A stretch of 39,870 bases of DNA, taken from Asanoa siamensis. Its GTDB lineage: Bacteria; Actinomycetota; Actinomycetes; Mycobacteriales; Micromonosporaceae. The position numbers were made by a program, and so were the translations under genes. Of this stretch, positions 9,244 through 39,870 are shown in pieces. The notes beneath the pieces were generated by a model. The model worked only from the letters and a program-made list of their open reading frames with translations. It searched no databases and was not told where the DNA came from. The DNA lies in the NCBI RefSeq assembly GCF_016862555.1, contig NZ_BONE01000072.1:1-39870 (forward strand), in the 5' to 3' direction. Position 1 is the stretch's first letter. The number at the start of each line of letters is the position of its first letter.

Positions 9244-10497
9244 CTACCTCTCCTGCCGGGCCATCCACTGCCAGATGTGGGTGCCGTCGATGCTCGGGTC
9301 GTTGCGGGCCACGTAGATCCAGGACCAGTGGCCCGGGAACCGGTGGCCGTTCCAGACCACGTTGTCGTAGAGGGTGAGCAGCGAACCCGGGATGAGCTCG
9401 TGGGCGTGCACGGTGTTGGGCAGCGGCGGCACCGTCGTGTCGTCGAGCGACGTGACGAGCCAGGTCGGCGTCCGGATCGACGCGAGCTCGGCGTCGGTCA
9501 CCATCGTCGGGCCGCCGGGCTGCAGGGACGTGACGACACCGCAGACGGGTACGGAGGCCGCGAACAGGTCCGGGTACGTCGCGGTCAGCTTCAGGCTCAG
9601 GTAGCCACCGTTGCTGCAGCCGGCGACGTAGATCCGGTCGCGGTCGACCGCGTGGCGGCGGGCCAGGTCGTGCACCAGCTCCCGGATCAGCGGCGCGAAC
9701 CGCGGGCCGTCCTCGAGCCAGAACGAGGTGCTCTGCGGTGCCACCACGTACGCGCCGCCGAAGACGCGCTGCGCCTCCCGCGTGGCGAAGCCCAGCGCGC
9801 CGCGGTTGGCCCGCAGGGTCGTCTCGTTGTCGTAGTAGCCGTCGGGCAGGGACGCGCCCTCTCCCCCGCCGTGCAGCCAGACGACCAGCGGGCGCCGGCC
9901 GCGGCCGGAGCTCGGCGCGAACAGCCGGTACTTCATGCCGGAGGCGGAGGTTCCGTAGCGGAACGCGTCGACCTCCGGGTTGACCAGCCGGCCCTGGACG
10001 AACCGCTCGACGGTGACCGGGCCGCGGCCGCGTACGACGAGCGGTGCGTGCTGGGTGATGGTGTAGACGAGGTCGAGCCGGACGTTGCGGCCCCGGCTGA
10101 GGATGTAGCCGAGGGTGCCGCCGCCCGTCTGGCCCTCGGCGTGGCTCAGCTCGAGCACGATGTCGCCACGCCGGTCGAGCCGGGCGGCGGTCACGGTGCG
10201 GTCGAGGTCGTACTCGCTGAAGATCTGGTCGCCGGGCGCGATGGGAATCGGGCTGGTGGCCTTGGCGTGCACGCCGAACGTGCCGGTGGTCAGGCTGGCG
10301 GGGTCGATCCGGCCGAGCCGCGCGGTGTCGAGGGTGACCGAGGTGACCTGCTCACCGCCGTCGAGCACCTCGGCGTCGAGCGTGAACCGCACGGTCGTGG
10401 CGCCACCGGCCGCAGCGGCGGATGCGGCGGCGGGCGCGGCGATACCGGCTGCGGCGCCCGCACCGGCGGCCAGGAGGGAACGACGGCTGATCGGCAT
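9244..10497 (-). CDS. Tat-exported PHB-depolymerase-like esterase
   Basis: A 417-aa secreted esterase. It starts with a twin-arginine signal (MPISRRSLLAAGAG, then an Ala-rich stretch). Residues ~33-175 form a beta-rich N-terminal domain like the Ig-like module seen in some bacterial esterases. The catalytic alpha/beta-hydrolase domain follows: oxyanion motif LHGGGEG, nucleophile elbow GCSNGG (the CxSxGG type typical of PHB depolymerase/feruloyl-esterase-like enzymes), acid in SLDDTTVP and histidine in NGHRFPGHWSW. The natural ester substrate is not deducible. The ATG at 10497 has an AAGGAG site at 10504-10509. A promoter must lie in the 65-bp gap to the next upstream gene, which contains an imperfect inverted repeat (GATAG...CTATC, 10511-10539). 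Confidence 0.82.
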   Translation of the reverse strand: MPISRRSLLAAGAGAAAGIAAPAAASAAAAGGATTVRFTLDAEVLDGGEQVTSVTLDTARLGRIDPASLTTGTFGVHAKATSPIPIAPGDQIFSEYDLDRTVTAARLDRRGDIVLELSHAEGQTGGGTLGYILSRGRNVRLDLVYTITQHAPLVVRGRGPVTVERFVQGRLVNPEVDAFRYGTSASGMKYRLFAPSSGRGRRPLVVWLHGGGEGASLPDGYYDNETTLRANRGALGFATREAQRVFGGAYVVAPQSTSFWLEDGPRFAPLIRELVHDLARRHAVDRDRIYVAGCSNGGYLSLKLTATYPDLFAASVPVCGVVTSLQPGGPTMVTDAELASIRTPTWLVTSLDDTTVPPLPNTVHAHELIPGSLLTLYDNVVWNGHRFPGHWSWIYVARNDPSIDGTHIWQWMARQER

Positions 10498-10562
10498 GTC
10501 GTACTCCTTCGATAGTCATCGCTGTGATGATTGTCTATCACAAGGAGGTTCCCGCCGGATCC

Positions 10563-11798
10563 TCAACCGCGGGCGGACGCTTCGACGATGTCCGCGATCG
10601 CCCGCAGCGGGTCGTACCGCGCCATCTCCCGCGCCATCGTGCCCGCCTGGGCGCGGTAGCCGGGGTCGAACAGCACCTTGCGCACGGCCGCCGAGACCTC
10701 GGAGTCCGCCGGGCGGCCGGTGCCCAGGTCCAGGCCGGTGCCGCTCCATGCGACGCGGGCGGCGACCTCCGGCTTGTCCTCGCTGGCGCCGGCGACCACC
10801 AGCGGGACACCGTGGTGCAGCGCGGTCTGGACGCCGCCGTAGCCGCCGTTGGTGACGAGGACGGCGGCGTGCGGCAGCAGGCGGTCGAAGGGTACGTAAC
10901 CGGCCAGCCGCACGTTCGCCGGCACCACGCCGCCGAGCTCCCGGCGCACCACCTCCGGCCCGTCCGGGCGGGCGGTGGCCGCCACCACGAGCACGTCGAG
11001 GTCGGCGAGCGCCCGCACGGTCGGGACCACCAGTTCGGTCAGGTCGGTGTTGGCGACCGTGCCCTGGGTGACGACCACGACCGGGCGCCCGTCCGACAGC
11101 TCGGGCCACCACGACGGCTCCGCGAACTCGCCGCCGCGCGTCGGCGGCAGCGCTCCGACGAACCGGAGGTGAGCCGGCAGGTCGTCCCGGGGGTACTCGA
11201 AGCTCGGCACCGTGAGCTGGAGGTAGTGATCGGTGCGTTGGAAGGGCGCGTCGAACAGGAAGTCGGTCAGGCGTACGCCCAGCGACGCGAGGGTCGTCTC
11301 GCCGAACTTCTGCAGGCCGGCGAAGGCCTGGCGGGCTTCGGCGTCGTCGCCGCCACCGAGCAGCAGCGGGATGGCGCCCAGCGTCACGAGCGTCGGCCGG
11401 TGCTCCCGGGCCGTGTGCAGGCTGAGCACGGGTATCGACCAGAACCCGAGCTCACCGATCACCACGTCGGCGGGGAACTCGGCCCGCAGCGACCGCAGGC
11501 CGCACATCTGCGCGGGCAACTGGCCCAGGAAGAAGTTCTCGAAGTCGAACGAGAGCTGGGCCGGGCCGGGCGGCAGCGCCGCCCGCTCCGGGAAGAGGGT
11601 GCCCAGCTGCCCGTCGTCGACGTCGGCCTGCGGCGGCAGCGGCCGGAACCGGGCACCGGTCGCCCGGGCCCGCTCCGCGAACCGCGAACCCGTGTAGACG
11701 ACGACCTCGTGGCCACGTCGGACCAGATCCCCGGCGACGGTGAGGACCGGGCTCACGTGCCCCTCGAACGGGGTCGCCCCCACGATGACCTTCGCCAT
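10563..11798 (-). CDS. MGT-type glycosyltransferase (GT1 fold)
   Basis: This 411-aa enzyme has the GT-B fold of macrolide-type (MGT) glycosyltransferases. The N-terminal Rossmann domain starts KVIVGATPFEGHVSPVLTVAGDLVRRGHEV, with the GHV-P motif that positions the acceptor base. The C-terminal donor domain contains VVVVTQGTVANTDL and the nucleotide-sugar loop LVTNGGYGGVQTALHHGVPLVV, which has Asn where many relatives have His. It should transfer a sugar from an NDP- or UDP-donor to a small hydrophobic acceptor. Two ATGs are possible; the second (11798) lies 7 bases from a strong GAGGAGGG site, whereas the first (11804) is too close. It is the last gene of the HD-reductase-glycosyltransferase operon, starting 13 bp after the reductase stop. 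Confidence 0.85.
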   Translation of the reverse strand: MAKVIVGATPFEGHVSPVLTVAGDLVRRGHEVVVYTGSRFAERARATGARFRPLPPQADVDDGQLGTLFPERAALPPGPAQLSFDFENFFLGQLPAQMCGLRSLRAEFPADVVIGELGFWSIPVLSLHTAREHRPTLVTLGAIPLLLGGGDDAEARQAFAGLQKFGETTLASLGVRLTDFLFDAPFQRTDHYLQLTVPSFEYPRDDLPAHLRFVGALPPTRGGEFAEPSWWPELSDGRPVVVVTQGTVANTDLTELVVPTVRALADLDVLVVAATARPDGPEVVRRELGGVVPANVRLAGYVPFDRLLPHAAVLVTNGGYGGVQTALHHGVPLVVAGASEDKPEVAARVAWSGTGLDLGTGRPADSEVSAAVRKVLFDPGYRAQAGTMAREMARYDPLRAIADIVEASARG

Positions 11799-11811
11799 CC
11801 TCATACCCTCC

Positions 11812-12735
11812 TCAGTGGACGTCCGCGACCTGGATGATCGTCTTGCCGGGTGTCCGGCGGCGGCGGGCGAACGCGTCGACCGTCTCGGACAGCGGCCGCA
11901 CGTCCCCCACGATCGGCTCGAGCCGCCCCGCGCGGACGCGCTCGGCGAGGTCCGCCAGGCGGGCGCGGTCGGGTTCGACGACGAAGAAGACCGCGCGCCC
12001 GTCCTCGGGTCGCACGGTCGGCGGCTCGGCGATGGTGACGACCGTGCCGCCGGCGCGGACGAGCCTGGTCGACCGCGCGAGGATCTCCCCGCCGATGACG
12101 TCGAACACCACGTCGACGCCGCCGACGTCCGCGAGGTCGCCGGCGGCGAGGTCGACGAACTCGTGCGCGCCGAGACCGCGCACGACGTCACGGTCGCCGG
12201 CCCGCCCGGTGCCGATCACCCGGGCGCCCACGTCGCGGGCGAGCTGGACGGCGATCGAGCCGACGCCGCCCGCGGCACCGTGCACGAGGACCGTCTGGCC
12301 GGTCGTCAGGTGCCCGTGGTCGAACAGCCCCTCCCAGGCGGTCAGCCCGGAGATGGGCAGCGCGGCGGCCACCGTGTGGTCGACGTCGGCCGCGAGCGGC
12401 GCGAGGTTGCGCGCCTCCACCGCCGTGTACTCGGCCAGGGATCCGTTGCGGGCCCAGTCCGTGAGCCCGAACACGCGCTGGCCCACGCTCAGGCCGGTCG
12501 TCCCGTACCCGAGCTCCGCCACCGTCCCGGACAGCTCGTGCCCGGGGATCGTCGGCGTCCGGTCGTGGCCGGCGCGGTCGGTCCAGGTGGCCGGCCACGA
12601 CAGCTCTCCAGGCGTGAAACCCGCCGCGTGTACGCGCACGATGACGTCGTTCTCGGCGGCGTGCGGATACGGCATGTCGGTCAGGGTGAGGCCGCCGACG
12701 CCGGCCTCGCGGTCTCGTACCGTGATCGCTCGCAT
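11812..12735 (-). CDS. zinc-independent medium-chain dehydrogenase/quinone oxidoreductase
   Basis: The 307-aa product is a medium-chain dehydrogenase/reductase of the quinone-oxidoreductase branch. The N-terminal GroES-like half contains IPGHELSGTVAELG and VGQRVFGLTDW; the NAD(P)-binding Rossmann motif is VHGAAGGVGSIAVQLA (GAAGGVG at 153-159). The structural and catalytic cysteine ligands of zinc alcohol dehydrogenases are absent, so it is probably an NADPH-dependent reductase of enones or quinones. It starts with ATG at 12735, with an AAGGGACGG-type ribosome binding site, 16 bp after the HD gene, and is followed closely by the glycosyltransferase; the three form an operon. Confidence 0.88.
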   Translation of the reverse strand: MRAITVRDREAGVGGLTLTDMPYPHAAENDVIVRVHAAGFTPGELSWPATWTDRAGHDRTPTIPGHELSGTVAELGYGTTGLSVGQRVFGLTDWARNGSLAEYTAVEARNLAPLAADVDHTVAAALPISGLTAWEGLFDHGHLTTGQTVLVHGAAGGVGSIAVQLARDVGARVIGTGRAGDRDVVRGLGAHEFVDLAAGDLADVGGVDVVFDVIGGEILARSTRLVRAGGTVVTIAEPPTVRPEDGRAVFFVVEPDRARLADLAERVRAGRLEPIVGDVRPLSETVDAFARRRRTPGKTIIQVADVH

Positions 12736-12751
12736 GGTCCGTCCCTTCGTC

Positions 12752-13390
12752 TCAGCTCGGCCAGGGCGCCCCGAGGATCCGCTGGACCGTCGTGGCCCGG
12801 CGGAAGTCCGGGACGAGGTGCTCGAGGATGTCGGCGTTCACCGTCCCGTTGGTGGTCTCGGGGCGCCCGCGCAGCCCGTCGACATGGGCCTGCAGGAACT
12901 CGTTCTTGAAGTCCCCCCGCGGGTACGCGGCCACGATCTCGTCGACCCGGCCGCGGTCGAACCCGTCGAGCCCGAGGCCGAGCACGTCGGTCAGGATGCC
13001 GAGCTGCGTGGTCGCGATCTCGGGACCCATGCGGTGCGGGATGCCCGGCGTGGTGTGCAGGGCGATCGCCAGCCAGACCTTCTCGACGGCGCCCTCGTCG
13101 AAGCCCCGCTCCAGCAGGAAGGCCCGCGCGTGGTCGGCGCCGTCGACCTCGAAGCGCTGCTCGACGGCGGAGAACGGGGTTAGGAGACCCGAGTCGTGGA
13201 AGATCGCCGCCAGGTAGTTCAGCTCCGGGTCGGGCTGCAGGCCGAGGTTGCGCGCGTGCAGCAGGCCGAACACGAAGACCCGCCGCGAGTGCCGGTACAG
13301 GACGGGGCTCATGGTCTTCTCGACGAGCCTGTCCGCTTCCGCGACGGCTGTGGTCTCGGGAATCTCCACGCCCGCGATGACGTCCGGCAT
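12752..13390 (-). CDS. HD-domain protein, cyanamide-hydratase-like
   Basis: A 212-aa single-domain HD protein. Metal ligands are visible as His34 in LYRHSRRVFVFG and the His65-Asp66 pair in AAIFHDSGLL, with a further His near WLAIALHTTPGIP. The arrangement RHSRRVFxFG followed by an FHD motif resembles the cyanamide-hydratase-like HD family rather than the larger nucleotide phosphohydrolases, but the true substrate is uncertain. The ATG at 13390 has a GGAGGG site at suitable distance. It is the first gene of an operon with a reductase and a glycosyltransferase, and is divergent from a GlxA-type regulator that probably controls the operon. Confidence 0.75.
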   Translation of the reverse strand: MPDVIAGVEIPETTAVAEADRLVEKTMSPVLYRHSRRVFVFGLLHARNLGLQPDPELNYLAAIFHDSGLLTPFSAVEQRFEVDGADHARAFLLERGFDEGAVEKVWLAIALHTTPGIPHRMGPEIATTQLGILTDVLGLGLDGFDRGRVDEIVAAYPRGDFKNEFLQAHVDGLRGRPETTNGTVNADILEHLVPDFRRATTVQRILGAPWPS

Positions 13391-33059: not shown

Positions 33060-33114
33060 CCCGACCCCAACCATCGCGGCGTCAGGTGGCGTCCTATCTG
33101 GCGAGGGGGTGGGC

Positions 33115-33537
33115 ATGGCCGAGACGTTCCACGAGTTCGTGGTGCAACGATCCCCGGCGCTGTCCCGGCGGGCCTACCTGCTCACCGGCGACCACCAACT
33201 CGCCGAGGACCTGCTGCAGAACGCGCTGGCCAAGACCTACCGGCACTGGCGGCGGATCAGCGATCCCGAGGCGTACGTGCGGCGCGCCATGTACCACCAG
33301 CAGGTCTCCTGGTGGCGGCAACGTCGGCTCACCGAACGCCTGGAGTCGGAGCCGGTCGAGCGGGCCGGCACCGACCACTCCGACGCGACCGCCCTCCGGT
33401 TGACCGTCGCGGCCGCGTTGCGCCAGCTCACCCCGCGCCAGCGCGCCGTGGTCGTGCTGCGGTTCTACGAGGACCTGACCGAGCCACAGGTCGCCGAGGT
33501 GCTCGGCTGCTCGGTCGGCACTCCTAAGGGACGTTAG
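33115..33537 (+). pseudogene. SigE-family ECF sigma factor gene truncated by element insertion
   Basis: The frame encodes a SigE-family sigma factor: FHEFVVQRSPALSRRAYLLTGDHQLAEDLLQNALAKTYRHW (region 2), then VSWWRQRRLTERL and LRQLTPRQRAVVVLRFYEDLTEPQVAEVLGCSVGT (region 4). It ends just where the family continues VKSQ...ALAKLR, after only a few foreign residues (PKGR) and a stop. The second half of the region-4 helix-turn-helix (the DNA-recognition helix for the -35 box) is missing. The 3' part is not elsewhere in the window. ATG 33115 has GAGGGGG upstream. The truncation coincides with the start of the serine recombinase, so the gene is the integration target. Confidence 0.85.
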
Positions 33538-33540
33538 ATG
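33515..33540. mobile_element. left attachment junction (attL) of the integrated element
   Basis: The change from sigma-factor coding sequence to foreign sequence occurs after GGTCGGCAC (33515-33523 approximately), in the codons for C-S-V-G-T. The expected next codons (V-K-S) are replaced by CTCCTAAGGGACG and a stop. Serine integrases usually leave a 2-bp core within such a junction; the exact crossover base cannot be fixed without the other end. Confidence 0.65.
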
Positions 33541-33591
33541 CTAAGGTCGATGTCAATACTCAGGGTCATCGATCGCAGGGGGCCATTTCCG

Positions 33592-35130
33592 ATGGTACGG
33601 CGGGTCGCCCGGTCCGGGAACCGGGTTCGGTTCGACAGCAAGGACGCGCTTCTGGCCGGCGGTGTCGATGTGCGGGCCTTGCGGTACCAGCGGGCCAGTC
33701 AAGACAGGAAAGAGCAGGGCAAGAGCGTCGGTGATCAAGGCAAGCTGAACTTGGCCGAGGTCACCAAGCGGTCCTGGTCGGACGCGGGGTCGTTCACGGA
33801 CAACGACCGGTCGGCGAGCCGGCACGCGAAGAAGGATCGGCCGGAGTTCGAGTTGCTGATCGAGCGGATCGAAGCCGGTCGGGGTGACGTGCTGGTGATC
33901 TGGGAGATGTCCCGTCGGGAGCGTGACCTGGCGGTGTACGTGAAGATCCGGGACATGTGCACGAAGGTCGGCTTGTACTTCTGGCTCGTCGGCGGAGTCC
34001 TGTACGACCTGCGGGACAAGAACGACCGGATGATGCTCGGCTTCCAGGCGGTCCAGGCGGAGTGGATGGCGGACTCGATCCGGGACAACGTCTTGCGCGG
34101 TGTGGCGATGGCCGCGGAGGCGGGCCGTCCGCATGGGAAGGTCACCTACGGGTATCGGCGGATCTACGACCAGCGCACGAGAGCCCTGCTACGGCAGGAG
34201 CCCGACACGGAGCTCCGCACCGCGACCGCTGTTGACGGGACGGTGATTGAGTACAGCCATGCCGGGGTCGTGCGGGACAACTTCAAGCGGGTCGCGGCTG
34301 GGGTTCCGCTGATTACGATCGAGCGCGATCTGAACGCCAGGGGCATCCCGTCCCCAGAGGGAAAGACCTGGCGGCGCGGGATCATCCGTAAGCAGGTGAT
34401 GAACCCGGCCTACATCGGCAAGCGAGTCTTCCGCGGCGAGGTGATCGGGGACGGCGCGTGGCCGGCACTGCTGGACGGTGAGGGCGTCTATTGGGCGTGC
34501 GTGCAGTTGCTAAGCGACCCGTCCCGGACGACGACTCGGGCCGGCCGGGCCGTCCACCTGCTGTCCTACATCGCCGCGTGCGGGGTCTGCGGCGGTCCGC
34601 TGTCGTCCAACCACGTGAACCGGCACGGTTGGGAAGGACAGGTGTACTCGTGCCTCAAGAGGCGGTGCGCAGCGGTCAAGGCCGAATTCCTCGACGAGTA
34701 CGTCCAGCGAACCGTCGTGGCGTGGCTGTCCCTGCCAGAAACCAGCGAGATGCTCTCGGCCTTGTCCGGTGGGGACGAGCAAGCCGCTCAGGCGCGAGCT
34801 GAGGCGGTTCGGCTCCGGGTGGAGTTGGAGGAGTGGCGCAAGCTGGGCGAGCAGGGCGAAGTCTCGGCTGTAGCGTACGCACGGGCGGAGAAGGGGTTGA
34901 CCGCGCAGATCGCCGAGCACGAGCAGCGGGCACAACAGGCCGGTATGCCGCCGGTACTTCGCGGACGGATCGGCGAGCACGCCGCACAAAAATGGGCCGA
35001 CCTGGGCGATCAGGTCGCGGTAAAGCGGGAGATCATCCGGACGGTGGCAGACATAAACTTGCTACCGGCCGGCAAGGGCAACCGCCGGCCGTTTGGCGGG
35101 CACCGTCTGAGGTGGTCGTGGCGATTCTAG
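33592..35130 (+). CDS. large serine recombinase (integrase)
   Basis: The 512-aa product is a large serine integrase. The N-terminal catalytic domain has nucleophile Ser36 in RYQRASQDRKEQGKSVGDQ, and the SRRERD and GVLYDLRDKNDR blocks that hold the catalytic arginines. The recombinase domain follows (GKVTYGYRR, VFRGEVIG), then a zinc ribbon with Cys330, Cys333, Cys354 and Cys359, and a coiled coil (about 385-440). It would integrate the element by attP x attB recombination. The ATG at 33592 lies 9 bases after AGGGGG, so I prefer it to the upstream ATG 33538. No excisionase-type directionality factor is visible in the window. Confidence 0.92.
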   Translation: MVRRVARSGNRVRFDSKDALLAGGVDVRALRYQRASQDRKEQGKSVGDQGKLNLAEVTKRSWSDAGSFTDNDRSASRHAKKDRPEFELLIERIEAGRGDVLVIWEMSRRERDLAVYVKIRDMCTKVGLYFWLVGGVLYDLRDKNDRMMLGFQAVQAEWMADSIRDNVLRGVAMAAEAGRPHGKVTYGYRRIYDQRTRALLRQEPDTELRTATAVDGTVIEYSHAGVVRDNFKRVAAGVPLITIERDLNARGIPSPEGKTWRRGIIRKQVMNPAYIGKRVFRGEVIGDGAWPALLDGEGVYWACVQLLSDPSRTTTRAGRAVHLLSYIAACGVCGGPLSSNHVNRHGWEGQVYSCLKRRCAAVKAEFLDEYVQRTVVAWLSLPETSEMLSALSGGDEQAAQARAEAVRLRVELEEWRKLGEQGEVSAVAYARAEKGLTAQIAEHEQRAQQAGMPPVLRGRIGEHAAQKWADLGDQVAVKREIIRTVADINLLPAGKGNRRPFGGHRLRWSWRF

Positions 35131-35212
35131 GGCAAAGAGAACCAGCACCTCGCATAGCTGGGGGCATCACGTCGATTCGACCCGCCATCACGTCGCCAAT
35201 CCCAACTTAGTA
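35131..35212. other. gap between recombinase and Shedu gene
   Basis: These 82 bases contain a direct repeat CATCACGTCG (35165-35174 and 35186-35195) and a small palindrome GTCGATTCGAC. The recombinase and Shedu genes are convergent here. I see no convincing terminator hairpin with T-run. Confidence 0.4.
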
Positions 35213-36229
35213 CTACAAGCGGTCGACTGAACCAAGTAATGCTCTGCACTGTGCCAAAAGTTGGTCATATGTCATAACCGTGATGCCATGAAGGCGAGCA
35301 TTTAGTCCGTGCAATGCATGCAACTCACGGCGTGTCCACTTAGACGACCGTCCAGCAATGATGACGGCCCTGGGATGATACGCGACAATTTCCGGATGGT
35401 CGTCAAGTCCGCCTCGGAGCTTGTCGTGCAGAACGTCCAAATAGCGATGACATTGCCCGATTGCTTTCGTTATTTGGTGGGCCCAATAAAAACATTTGTG
35501 CTCACGGTCATAGTTCAACACCGTCGCGTCCGGCCGCTTCAGTTCGTAGACGTCTCGAAGGCCGTTTAACGCCGACTCCACAAGAATGTCTATATCGTCG
35601 GCGGCACTGACTCGCCGGACCGCGTCGCGACGAACATACACGTTTCCGAGCGCCCATGTGTGTGCCTCCAGCCAATCTTGATAAATGGTCTCTGCAACCT
35701 GGCCACTCTCGAGAAGTGACCCAAGCTGATCGGTTGCACGCCGCAATGCGCTCAATCTCACTGCGTCATCGATGGAATTGCTGATGATGTCCGCCACTTC
35801 AGGCTGTCGCATGACTGATGCCATCTGGGGCATGCTCAGAATTTTGGCTAACGCTGCGGCTGCATCTATTGAGTCGTCCCCGGCGACGTCGTCGACTCGA
35901 ATGAGTGCATATGATCCAGGCGTCCGATTCCGAATCGCGGCCGCAGCATCCACGTATTTTAGAAGCTCGTGAACCTCCGACTCGCTTAGGGAGATCTCAT
36001 TCTTTGGGGACATTGGCTTTGTCGTGTCAATACGTTCCAGGCGAAGCACTAGTTCAGCAGAGCTGGTGGAGTGTGGAACGATCCACGCTATCGCTTGAAT
36101 GAGATAGCGCTTGCTGCGCAATACCCGGGTCGGCAGATAGGTGACTATCCCGTTGCGAGCGAGTCTGCTTTCGATGCGCTCTACCTGCACCACGTCCCGG
36201 CGAGGGCCCGGACTATTCGCCTGAGTCAT
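35213..36229 (-). CDS. Shedu-type (SduA / DUF4263) anti-phage nuclease
   Basis: The 338-aa protein carries the DUF4263 (Shedu) nuclease domain in its C-terminal half: YQDWLEAHTWALG (183-195), then DDIDILVE with Asp214, VYELKRPD with Glu229 and Lys231, and AIGQCHRYLD with Gln259. This is a PD-(D/E)XK-type active site (D...E-x-K...Q), the signature of SduA, the single-gene anti-phage system. Residues 1-170 are an N-terminal domain without a motif I can name, as in many Shedu proteins, and presumably sense infection. ATG 36229 has no clear ribosome binding site; a weak TTGACC (minus strand, 36259-36264) could be a -35 element. It lies 65 bp downstream of the restriction-modification gene on the same strand. 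Codon use and GC are unlike the host genes. Confidence 0.85.
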   Translation of the reverse strand: MTQANSPGPRRDVVQVERIESRLARNGIVTYLPTRVLRSKRYLIQAIAWIVPHSTSSAELVLRLERIDTTKPMSPKNEISLSESEVHELLKYVDAAAAIRNRTPGSYALIRVDDVAGDDSIDAAAALAKILSMPQMASVMRQPEVADIISNSIDDAVRLSALRRATDQLGSLLESGQVAETIYQDWLEAHTWALGNVYVRRDAVRRVSAADDIDILVESALNGLRDVYELKRPDATVLNYDREHKCFYWAHQITKAIGQCHRYLDVLHDKLRGGLDDHPEIVAYHPRAVIIAGRSSKWTRRELHALHGLNARLHGITVMTYDQLLAQCRALLGSVDRL

Positions 36230-36294
36230 GCGACAACACTGACGCAATGAGAACCGAGGGTCAAGGGAGGACGAGTGCCAACGCGGGAAACTAG

Positions 36295-39200
36295 CTAGGC
36301 CAGCATCGCTCGAACGATGGCTTCTATCTGCGTGGCCGCCGGATGGGTCGCAAGCTCGGTGCGGATGCGGCGGCGCAAAGAGATAAAGCTCGTATTCTCG
36401 TCGAATGCAAGCCCTGAAACGATGTCGCGCTGCCTAGCTCCCAGTTCGACGAGGCGTCGGTGATCGGGGCGCGCCTTGTCGTAAAGTGGAATCGGCAGCT
36501 GCCAGATGTGCTTGTCGACGTGTCGCTCGTCCTTGCCATAAGACATCATCGGCCGGATCAGCTCTGTGAGCAACGCGCTGTTTAGGATCGCGCACAAGTA
36601 GAGACCTTCGTCGTGCGTAGAAATTGTACAGTAATATAGTCCGTGCTCCAGGATTACTCGCGGATCCTCTACAACAGCCGCAGAGACGTGCATTCCAGAG
36701 GCGCCATACGCGAGACGTAGTGGAGATGGCGGAATCTGAACCGAGAGCTTCCGCCGGTAGTCGAGCTGCTCACCGAGCGTAAGGCGTGTGCTGCGACGGT
36801 GGTTCTCCCAAACGGCTACCGCCTGCTGCCACCAGTCCGCTAATCCGGGATAATAGTCAAGGACAGAGTCGTCACTAGCAATTAGGCGTTGCCCCACGAT
36901 TGGGAGGACGACCCGACGGGCAGGAAGCAGGCGGTACGGGAGGAGACTCTCTCCAAGTAGGACGTCCCGGATAAACTCGGTTTCAACAACCCCTTCTAAC
37001 CTTTCGAGGTCCTTCCATGGTTGTTTCTCGTAGTTGCTTCGCGACGACTTGACCTTTCGACTGCCGGCGGCAAACCCGAGTGGACTATGCGGAACATCAA
37101 CAAAAAACAACACGCGAGGGAAGATAGTGGCACCGTTGTTCACACGTGGCGCGTAAGGTGATTCCTCGACGAGTGATCCGGTCGAGACCAACCCTGCGAT
37201 CTTAATCTCTATGTTCGGTTCCACAACGTCCCATGATCCCCCTGAAGCCGGTATTCGCCCGGACCAACGTTGCGTCGTCGCGGACATCTGTCGATATTGG
37301 TCTGATGACGTTCTGCGGCCAAAAATCACGCTCGCGCCACGCGGGAAGGGATGGGGACGCAACCGCCGTAGGTCCCACGTAGCAGTGAACGTCACGGCAA
37401 CAGGCTCGGCAGAATCGTCGTACCAGCCTGACCGAAAGCCGGCATAGTAGGCACGGTCGAGTACCGCGTTTGGGAGCACAAATGCAAACGACCCGCCCAT
37501 CGCCAGATACTGCTGTATGGCGCGCGCAACGAATAGGGCGGAGAGGTCCTGGTGAGTCGCAAACTTGCCCCCGTGCCAGATCCCGCGATCGCTTGACAGG
37601 TCCTTAAAAAGTTTCTGCATATCGATCGGCATGTGCCGGTAGGACAACCACGGTGGATTTCCAATAAGGACATCCACGCGATTCTCGCGTAGGGCGAGCC
37701 ATACGGGACGCGCAAGGTTCCTAATGTAGTAACTCCAGATATGATTGCGACCTTCGTCGTGAAGTCTGCACATCGCGGCGAAGGTCTCGAGAATCATCGG
37801 CTGATCTTCTTCGGCGATCGCCATCCTATGAAAAACGGCGCCCAAGGAAGGAAGCGTATTCTTGTCGCGTGGCTTCGCCGCCAGCGATGCCAAATTCGAT
37901 ACGAGTCTGTCGAAACGACTAGGATCGGAGAGTAGGTGCTCGGGAAAGCGAAGCACGTCCTCGAGAAGACTTGCGCCGTGTCCAGCACTAATGCGGAGGT
38001 GTTCCTCGGTGAAGAGGTCGAGCCGTTCTCTCCATTGAATGCTGTCGCCCAGGTAGACGGGAATATTGATGGTGTCTCTACCGGGGTCGACCAAGCGTTC
38101 CCGACCAATGGCCAGCAGATAAGTCACGCGAGCGAGAGCCACTGCAACGGGGTGAAGGTCCACTCCGATCACGTGCCGCGAGAGGCTCGCAAGGGCAGAA
38201 TCAACGGATTCTCCGCGTACGTCCGCTGCGGCTAGATACTTCCTGACTGCGTGAAACAGGAACGTACCTGAGCCGCAAGCAGGATCCAGCACTCGTTGCT
38301 GCAAAGGTTGGCTGATCGACTTGTTTACTATCTCCTCCGCGAGCCAGTCGGGCGTATAGTATTCGCCCATTCGCTTGCGTGTCTCCGTGCCGATCACTGA
38401 TTCGTAGAGGATCTTAAGTACGTCGTGCTCGACGTGCGCCCAATCGAATCGGGCCAAACGTCGAGCCAAAGACTGCACGAACTGTGCGCCCCCGGGAACC
38501 TCTATTGTCCAGTCAAAGAAGTCCTGCTCTACGACCCCAAAAATGCCCGCTTGTTCGAATCGTTGGCCGCTAATCAGGCTAGCCGGCTGCAGGTCCAGGA
38601 CGTCGATCCCAAGAACCAGATGCGCAATTATGTCCGCGCTATTCACCAGAAGTGTGTGCTCGACGAAGAGTTCGTCACTGTCGATGAACTGAGTCCCAAG
38701 CGCGCTGTGCAAGAGTTGTGCCCAAAGGCGCCGCTTGACTTGGACTGTTGGTAGGTCGACATGTTCGGCGTAAAGGTCGGCAAGCATAGCCCGATCGAGC
38801 GCGTGCGATGTGCTGGCCGCACCGAGGCGCTGGACAATTTCCGTCGGTGTTGGCAAGACGCCCTGCTGGGTCGCTAAGATGCCCTCGAGCCAATAGAACA
38901 GCGCAAGAGGATCCCCCGTACCAGGGCTGTTCTTATAGGTTGTAACGCGAGTCAGGCCTTCGCCTTGAAGCTGATAGGCATGCCACTGAACTCCGTCTGT
39001 AAGAATGCCGACGTAGTGTTGTCCGGTCTGATGACTTCGCGCGGTTACATAGCCCGCCAACTGCTTCTCGGCCTCGGCGACGACGCGGGCGCTTCCCAGG
39101 TTCTTTTTGACCTCGATGGCGGTGTATCCGGCTTCGATATCGATGCGACGGCCACCACCAGCCGGCACTTCCAGGTCGACATCGACGTGGTCGTCGGACA

Positions 39201-39453
39201 GGCCGAAGTCACCGGCTAGCAGGAGCCTTCGAATGTCGGCCTGCAGTGTGGCTTCGCTCCGCGGGCGATCGCGGCTCGCGATCTTGGCCAGAAGATCAGC
39301 CACAGGCTCGCGAAAGCCCCGTAACTGTTGGTACTGGGGGACAAATCCGGCACTATGACGCCCCGTATTGGCCATGTGACAGTATGCGCAGCCCCATCGA
39401 TGTGCCGCCATAGCCCAATCGGTGACAAATGGCAGTGCCTCAGGGTGATCCAC
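36295..39453 (-). CDS. type IIG-like restriction-modification fusion protein
   Basis: The 1052-aa product combines all activities of a type IIG system. Residues ~65-165 form an HsdR_N-like PD-(D/E)XK nuclease: RRIDIEAGYTAIEVKKNLG gives Asp105, Glu114 and Lys116, with Gln131 after it. A helical linker leads to an N6-adenine methyltransferase: GEYYTPDWLAEEI (363-375), DPACGSGTFLF (motif I, 390-400), VIGVDLHPVAVALAR, and NPPW (motif IV, 599-602). Residues ~620-1050 would contain target recognition. The N-terminus also has WGCAYCHMANTGRH, a CxxC-H element. The start is uncertain: GTG 39453 is the first in frame after a stop, yet no ribosome binding site is near. PglX-like or DISARM-like methyltransferases are less likely because of the attached nuclease. 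Its GC content is low for this genome. Confidence 0.82.
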   Translation of the reverse strand: MDHPEALPFVTDWAMAAHRWGCAYCHMANTGRHSAGFVPQYQQLRGFREPVADLLAKIASRDRPRSEATLQADIRRLLLAGDFGLSDDHVDVDLEVPAGGGRRIDIEAGYTAIEVKKNLGSARVVAEAEKQLAGYVTARSHQTGQHYVGILTDGVQWHAYQLQGEGLTRVTTYKNSPGTGDPLALFYWLEGILATQQGVLPTPTEIVQRLGAASTSHALDRAMLADLYAEHVDLPTVQVKRRLWAQLLHSALGTQFIDSDELFVEHTLLVNSADIIAHLVLGIDVLDLQPASLISGQRFEQAGIFGVVEQDFFDWTIEVPGGAQFVQSLARRLARFDWAHVEHDVLKILYESVIGTETRKRMGEYYTPDWLAEEIVNKSISQPLQQRVLDPACGSGTFLFHAVRKYLAAADVRGESVDSALASLSRHVIGVDLHPVAVALARVTYLLAIGRERLVDPGRDTINIPVYLGDSIQWRERLDLFTEEHLRISAGHGASLLEDVLRFPEHLLSDPSRFDRLVSNLASLAAKPRDKNTLPSLGAVFHRMAIAEEDQPMILETFAAMCRLHDEGRNHIWSYYIRNLARPVWLALRENRVDVLIGNPPWLSYRHMPIDMQKLFKDLSSDRGIWHGGKFATHQDLSALFVARAIQQYLAMGGSFAFVLPNAVLDRAYYAGFRSGWYDDSAEPVAVTFTATWDLRRLRPHPFPRGASVIFGRRTSSDQYRQMSATTQRWSGRIPASGGSWDVVEPNIEIKIAGLVSTGSLVEESPYAPRVNNGATIFPRVLFFVDVPHSPLGFAAGSRKVKSSRSNYEKQPWKDLERLEGVVETEFIRDVLLGESLLPYRLLPARRVVLPIVGQRLIASDDSVLDYYPGLADWWQQAVAVWENHRRSTRLTLGEQLDYRRKLSVQIPPSPLRLAYGASGMHVSAAVVEDPRVILEHGLYYCTISTHDEGLYLCAILNSALLTELIRPMMSYGKDERHVDKHIWQLPIPLYDKARPDHRRLVELGARQRDIVSGLAFDENTSFISLRRRIRTELATHPAATQIEAIVRAMLA

Positions 39454-39870
39454 AGACGATTCAGAGCGACTCGTCGACGCCGGACCAACCTAACCTGAGC
39501 CGCAGACTTACCTCCTCTTGCTGATCATGCCAACCGCAGTCTCGGGCCCACCTCGCTGCCGGGCGACTCAGGCCCCGTATTCTCGGTGCCGCCTGGATCG
39601 TTCGGCAGGCCGGCACCTCCCGTTCCGGGCGGTATCTCTCGCGCCGATGCTTGATGTCAGCCAGAAGCCCTCCCGGGGGCCGACGAGCTCTTTCCCGTAG
39701 TCGGCCATGTGCCAGGTCGCTCGCCACCATGAGCCGCGTCAGGACATTGCGGCGCAGCCCCGGCTGATCGTGGACGGTGCCGCGAGGTCCTTCTGGCCCG
39801 TTGGATGAGATGCGCCTCGGAGGTTCAAGCTGCTGGATTGTTGGTGGGGTATTCGTTCCAGTGGAGCATG
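39454..39870. other. right-edge sequence, no supported gene
   Basis: On the minus strand one frame is open from the window edge to a TGA at 39461-39463, 7 bp before the restriction gene start, so the 3' end of a gene from outside the window is possible; I do not recognise the encoded text. A strong ribosome-binding sequence AAGAGGAGG (minus strand, 39519-39511) is present, but no ATG, GTG or TTG follows it at a proper distance. No repeat, tRNA or sigma-factor 3' end is visible. Confidence 0.3.

Follow-up and report, generated by a model that had tools for sequence, protein, structure and literature searches.

Here, a 39,870 bp contig of Asanoa siamensis (NZ_BONE01000072.1, C72 below; the whole of it is referred to as the window) was analyzed, which belongs to a draft genome (G000) of 219 contigs and 8.78 Mb. 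With a probability of about 80%, we consider that a type IIG-like restriction-methyltransferase fusion (IIG) and a Shedu SduA-family nuclease encoded in it are two independent defense genes carried as cargo by an integrative element that targets sigma genes, and that the window holds the left arm of this element of at least 22.2 kb. At the sequence level, this is indicated by both junctions, an uninterrupted site, conserved catalytic motifs of the proteins, a target shared by related elements with varying cargo and the lack of association of the two defense genes in the genomes searched. We infer that C72 and a second contig of the same genome, C8, form one element; activity, mobility, an effect against phages and loss of sigma function are likewise putative.

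The left end of the element lies in a gene for a SigE-family extracytoplasmic function (ECF) sigma factor. The open reading frame at 33109-33537 matches the SigE-fam_strep profile (TIGR02983; E 5.4e-49) over positions 5-144 of 162, and its DNA homology to the closest congener genes ends at window position 33521 (query base 522). The absent 3' part of the gene, followed by the downstream gene as in a congener, matches positions 15868-17296 of C8 at 71% identity. The left junction reads GTCGGC-AC-TCCTAAGG in the window, the right junction TTGACT-AC-GGTGAAGCGG on C8, and the uninterrupted site of the congener G002 GTCGGC-AC-GGTGAAACGG; the dinucleotide shared by them fits the 2-bp crossover of serine integrases. 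Five congeners were compared: G001, G002, and G004 have the sigma gene uninterrupted at 84-87% identity, and in the other two (G003 and G005) only matches of 70-71% to it were found. Hence an integrase near one end, a short core shared by both ends and a known uninterrupted site, by which serine-integrase elements are recognized, are all present. Because the window is a whole contig and the sigma 3' part lies on C8, the left arm of 6.35 kb and the right arm of 15.87 kb give a minimum length of 22.2 kb for the element, the middle of which is unassembled; the terminal 412 bases of C72 have no same-strand 12-mer in common with the initial 3000 of C8.

An earlier note on this DNA had delimited a serine-integrase element with anti-phage cargo at 33515-39453. 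Its description of the genes stood: the truncated sigma gene, the complete large serine recombinase and, on the opposite strand, the nuclease-methyltransferase fusion and the DUF4263 nuclease, both as intact reading frames, were recovered with the matches given here and in Table 1. A serine-integrase element with two intact genes of known anti-phage families is likewise borne out by the two ends in the genome, the shared AC and the uninterrupted congener site. The interval itself is only the left arm, the element being larger, and the right end, which the earlier note had proposed to determine, was located on C8 and not in the window. The stretch is also, as claimed, lower in G+C (GC) content than the host: GC is 0.732 in window positions 1-33000, 0.662 in the recombinase gene, 0.578 in the IIG gene and 0.548 in the Shedu gene, i.e., the decrease is greatest in both cargo genes.

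Sigma genes are a recurrent site of such elements. Among 300 genomes drawn from the host family, relatives of the recombinase (E 1e-60 or better) were detected in 32 genomes at 35 places, own included. Of the 34 other places 20 were opened; in 19 of them the identity over most of the protein is 59% or higher, and in the remaining one it is 44%. At 16 of these 21 loci, own included, the recombinase is directly preceded by a related sigma gene that is interrupted at the same motif, and tblastn of the own sigma protein found a sigma gene at 15 of the 20 sister loci. The frame layout ..GT, four codons and stop is present in all 16; the pattern used to pick these loci itself required the stop, so that the layout is described rather than tested, and the same 15 sister loci were sigma-positive by tblastn. 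The interrupted sigma proteins are mostly products of different genes, with a median pairwise identity of 41% (120 pairs) and only two pairs above 70%. In most sigma-located loci the sigma frame runs on through GT(V/P)K-like codons in the element half of the left attachment site attL (window 33522-33537) before it reaches the stop; therefore, the attachment site of the element, attP, resembles the sigma motif itself. For the right end, 13 sister loci were extended to 40-60 kb, and it was located in five of them, by pattern in G416 and G284 and beside a homolog of the 126-residue protein that adjoins the right end on C8 in G364, G282, and G475. In each of the five, ..TGACTAC stands immediately before the 3' remainder of a sigma gene, and the elements delimited in this way measure about 29-38 kb by subtraction. 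Two close recombinase copies each were seen in G481 and G488. An open-access literature search found no description of an element that recurrently inserts into a sigma-gene motif.

Between the ends, the cargo mostly differs. The integrase is common to all elements, relatives of a DUF2637 protein encoded near the right end occur at 15 of the 20 sister loci and the 126-residue protein at four, and few other genes are common to the five delimited elements, except for those of G364 and G282, which are close relatives. Twenty large proteins chosen from four sister elements were compared with PADLOC at 1e-5, and five of them matched. G284 encodes a defense reverse transcriptase UG22 (1.4e-125). In G416 the matches are to a type I restriction-like protein (1.8e-40) and to an effector-like protein of the PN superfamily (1.6e-22). 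In G475 one protein is PifA-like (2.1e-40) and another transporter-like (4.4e-18); the latter belongs to a candidate set and may have no role in defense.

The recombinase gene was supported by matches to Pfam Resolvase (3.8e-20), Pfam Recombinase (5.7e-10) and the integrase family phrog_95 (4.5e-73). Its close homologs mostly align from residue 11-27, residue 19 is encoded by the ATG at base 33592, and the true start is probably further in than that of the longest frame, likely at this ATG. Identity to homologs in the host family reaches 84%; 501 phage records match, each with less than 60% identity, and the best-ranked of these is 34.7% identical.

The IIG protein carries a PD-(D/E)XK-type nuclease motif (D105, E114-V-K116) followed in the same chain by the N6-adenine methyltransferase motifs DPACGSG and NPPW, the arrangement by which type IIG enzymes are recognized. 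In an alignment of 18 rows the residues D105, E114, and K116 are kept in at least 90% of the rows, with the relatives at L065 and L066 deviating, and D390, C393-G-S-G396 and N599-P-P-W602 of the methyltransferase are invariant. The relative at L060 (G300) was left out of this alignment; it extends over approximately 9643-12795 of G300:C1, contains three in-frame stops over the match and looks decayed. Homologs mostly align from residue 34-65, and the true start is probably further in, for example at ATG 39375. No Pfam match was obtained after residue 675, and the C-terminal part is presumed to be responsible for target recognition; a separate S subunit gene beside IIG was not recognized in the list of open reading frames, Pfam or PADLOC. 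Among solved structures only the methyltransferase parts match. Membership in BREX or MADS systems was rejected, as the scores for BREX-2 PglX (35.8 bits, cut-off 400) and MAD2 (55 bits, cut-off 720) were far too low. Relatives were found in 15 of the 300 family genomes (counting the own one). They also occur in 103 plasmid records, of which 16 match over at least 80% of the length.

The Shedu gene, read from its longest frame (35213-36247, 344 residues), matches PADLOC SduA with 3e-106 over residues 18-339 and Pfam SduA_C (PF14082, DUF4263) with 3.1e-13 and 50.6 bits, well above the cut-off of 27. Its PD-(D/E)XK residues (D-I-D..V-Y-E-L-K-R-P) align with those four of the five homolog rows that cover the region. 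L038 and L071, with a stop in the matched stretch, were left out of the Shedu alignments, and L034 was left out of that used for structure prediction. No sequence match to a solved structure was found with phmmer at E 1. Close relatives are rare: among the 300 family genomes only the own genome carries one, one other was found in a draw of 246 genomes of the phylum, and five contigs of the genome collection and three plasmid records contain one; no phage record matched. The relative in Streptomyces sp. WAC08241 (L037, 9950-11007) is split over two overlapping frames.

Table 1. Features of the sigma gene, the left end of the element and its left arm in the window.
Feature	Position	Strand	Basis or remark
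5' part of SigE-family ECF sigma gene	33109..33521	+	interrupted within the sequence that encodes the region-4 helix-turn-helix
Dinucleotide AC found at each junction, left element end	33520..33521		junction comparison
Element-derived part of attL	33522..33537	+	supplies the rest of the T codon in the cut sigma frame, followed by four codons and in-frame stop (..GTPKGR*)
Large serine recombinase (integrase)	33538..35130	+	530 aa; Pfam Resolvase and Recombinase, phrog_95
Shedu SduA-family nuclease	35213..36229, or to TTG 36247	-	PADLOC SduA, Pfam SduA_C, alignment
Spacer, 65 bp	36230..36294	-	between Shedu and IIG
Type IIG-like restriction-methyltransferase fusion	36295..39453	-	1052 aa; PADLOC REase_MTase_IIG 1.9e-75; Pfam N6_Mtase, Eco57I
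Unassigned element sequence up to contig end	39454..39870		element continues past contig C72

The earlier note had further proposed that IIG and Shedu form one transcriptional unit and a two-layer defense, in which IIG would cut unmodified DNA and Shedu would destroy the ends or the survivors. The 65 bp given there for the gap apply if Shedu starts at ATG 36229 (47 bp from TTG 36247), and a simple scan of the 65-bp spacer detected no terminator-like and no sigma70-type promoter-like site; a promoter scan gave one promoter-like match against 1.9 expected and was thus uninformative. Since the genes lie on the same strand, 65 bp apart and with no terminator-like site between them, one transcript of both in this strain is possible. 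The low GC of both genes would be compatible with joint arrival, and Shedu is called a sensor of DNA ends in the title of a cited paper, into which ends made by restriction would fit. Nevertheless, a functional pair in one operon is unlikely, as genome-level overlap is at chance and no second locus with both genes was found. Within the 300 family genomes IIG is present in 15, any SduA_C protein in 32 and both in two (own and G517), as compared to 1.6 expected (Fisher p 0.49); without the own genome the overlap is 1 against 1.45 expected (p 0.79), and in G517 the two lie on different contigs. Shedu is absent from the 14 other family IIG loci, viewed for about 8 kb on each side where the contig allowed, and from four plasmid IIG loci (H1, H2, H4, and H7; the Shedu matches H22 and H23 were left out), i.e., IIG homologs occur without this Shedu in both sets. 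Conversely, IIG is absent from seven Shedu-homolog loci (L034-L039 and L071), of which L034, L035, and L038 are short and offer a limited view. Neither a Shedu nor an IIG match was obtained at the 20 sister recombinase loci (tblastn, 1e-6), some of which are incomplete elements, and in an open-access literature search on Shedu and type IIG neither term appeared in any title or abstract returned. Outside the own genome, the two genes are therefore unlinked in the genomes and loci searched, and they do not co-occur beyond chance, an outcome that the earlier note itself had set against its two-layer claim; their pairing most likely reflects cargo combined by chance.

IIG and the recombinase coincide in the own genome and in G502 only, with 1.6 expected. 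In G502 both relatives are located on contig C15 (IIG at 189034, recombinase at 132891), about 55 kb apart, and because IIG lies on the upstream side of the recombinase it is probably outside that element.

Two further explanations concern the element as a whole rather than its cargo. The skin element interrupts sigK, and an arrangement of this type, in which excision of the element at a fixed point of development would make the sigma gene whole again, might explain why a coding motif is interrupted and why an integrase and an excisionase-family gene lie near the ends. The best NCBIfam match of the recombinase is XisF of the fdxN element, although at 46.5 bits it is far under the cut-off of 375, and elements that interrupt sporulation genes of spore formers and are excised are mentioned in PMC5595907. 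However, the interrupted sigma genes mostly differ by host and three congeners possess the uninterrupted site, both of which fit a mobile element better than a fixed program, and this explanation appears the least probable of those considered. That the element might be a decayed prophage or a remnant island with disused genes is very improbable as well. Large serine integrases are common in phages, as the matching phage records illustrate, and part of the element is unassembled, yet the right-arm proteins scanned include no phage structural gene, the genes for the integrase, IIG and Shedu have their full length and possess conserved motifs or close homologs, and three pattern scans of viral contigs gave no relative. 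An integrative element with independent defense genes as cargo is the preferred reading.

The right arm contains further genes. The 126-residue protein that adjoins the right end has no match in Pfam, PADLOC or PHROGs. The DUF2637 protein beside it, about 380 bp from the right end, matches Pfam (1.5e-16) as well as the excisionase family phrog_733 (4.4e-18). Further into the arm a helix-turn-helix regulator is encoded, followed by Nudix-like, DegT-like and dehydrogenase-like proteins, the latter three named from sequence; one Nudix-like protein matches the PADLOC candidate PDC-S07 (4.8e-10). The Nudix-like/DegT-like/dehydrogenase-like cassette (L032 on G000:C8, 7257-9941, minus strand) recurs in the same order at the G402 locus, about 28.5-31.2 kb along, with identities of 56, 66, and 62%. 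A 702-residue protein (L032, 2950-5058, minus strand) matches DUF4209 (2.4e-5) and the candidate defense family PDC-S39 (3e-14) and is possibly a third defense gene of the element. Actinomycete integrative and conjugative elements are characterized by an FtsK/TraB-type translocase and a replication initiator. Neither of these, nor any phage structural or conjugation gene, was recognized among the right-arm proteins compared with Pfam (ten) and PHROGs (seven), and no capsid, tail or terminase gene was found among the integrase and the seven right-arm proteins compared with PHROGs; such genes may lie in the unassembled middle of the element. In the left arm, the open reading frame at 39461-39868 (minus strand) gave no match in Pfam, PADLOC or NCBIfam at 0.1.

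Several observations weigh against the interpretation as a sigma-targeting element with independent defense cargo. The join of C72 and C8 would be based on the split sigma gene, of which each contig carries one part, and on the sister elements, with the middle unassembled. Five of the 21 recombinase loci are outside a sigma gene, namely L136 (G305), L139 (G534), L140 (G502), L147 (the second copy of G481), and L153 (G288), where the integrase may have used secondary sites or the elements may be rearranged. Of the 13 extended sister loci, eight yielded no right end. PADLOC gave no match at 1e-5 for 15 of the 20 sister cargo proteins scanned; defense cargo recurs but is not established as a rule, and defense may not be the typical cargo. 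The structure prediction of Shedu was poor, with a mean predicted local distance difference test (pLDDT) score of 45.9. Finally, SduA_C proteins and the recombinase coincide in seven of 300 genomes against 3.4 expected (p 0.039), or in six of 299 against 3.2 without the own genome (p 0.084). In five of these six genomes the two lie on different contigs and in G402 they are 1.35 Mb apart, and given these positions the coincidence was not read as linkage, although one element may be divided between contigs in a draft assembly.

We propose that the integrase recombines attP with a site in the sequence for LGCSxGTVK, the helix-turn-helix motif in region 4 of a SigE-type ECF sigma factor, and that the exchange takes place at or beside the dinucleotide AC and cuts the gene; the sigma factor would be inactivated because the end of region 4 is lost. 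The integrase gene at the left end and the excisionase-family gene near the right end would flank attP in the excised circle, and their products would move the element. IIG is predicted to methylate its target sequence as a self mark and to cut unmethylated incoming DNA nearby, and Shedu is predicted to degrade phage DNA when triggered, both acting as independent defenses that would be neighbors in the element by chance. Degradation of the phage genome is the mechanism given for Shedu in PMC12948488. A more far-reaching view, which we regard as rather doubtful, is that the integrases of this element family read a coding motif common to SigE-type ECF sigma paralogs (region 4), so that an element could occupy any of the many sigma genes of a genome, act as a reversible off-switch of the sigma factor concerned and ferry interchangeable anti-phage genes. 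Provided that it is functional, the integrase would offer a site-specific tool for the numerous related targets that actinomycetes contain, its insertions would couple gaining defense to losing a regulator, and unknown anti-phage genes could be sought in the variable cargo of the elements.

Both defense genes belong to known families. With type IIG enzymes, as characterized in PMC3874165, IIG shares the layout of a single chain in which the nuclease motif precedes an N6-adenine methyltransferase, and a Rhizobium homolog annotated as BseRI is 50.6% identical to it. BseRI has a companion fusion methyltransferase (PMC3874165); unlike for BseRI, no companion methyltransferase adjoins the IIG gene in the window. 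The methyltransferase beside the Rhizobium homolog found no match in the window or right arm and one weak match elsewhere in the genome (2.9e-5), which contains five Eco57I-family matches, IIG included; because of the weak match and these five, a companion acting in trans is possible. With Shedu (SduA, DUF4263), the protein has the C-terminal nuclease core with the conserved D..ELK in common, while its N-terminal domain was not recognized. For the pair, the closest likeness is a variant of the Vibrio island VSP-II, in which a type IV restriction system (GrwAB) and VcSduA are reported to be adjacent, independent and rarely together outside V. cholerae (PMC12137116), so that restriction and Shedu are neighbors on a mobile island as they are here. 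VSP-II differs in that its restriction system is of type IV and not type IIG, its Shedu is of another subtype with a GHKL N-terminus and the island is another one. The vehicle, recurring in one motif of many sigma genes, is the less ordinary part: as in other actinomycete integrative elements and phages with large serine integrases, the integrase lies near one end, the common core is short and integration occurs inside a gene, but it differs from those in that its site lies in a motif common to related sigma genes.

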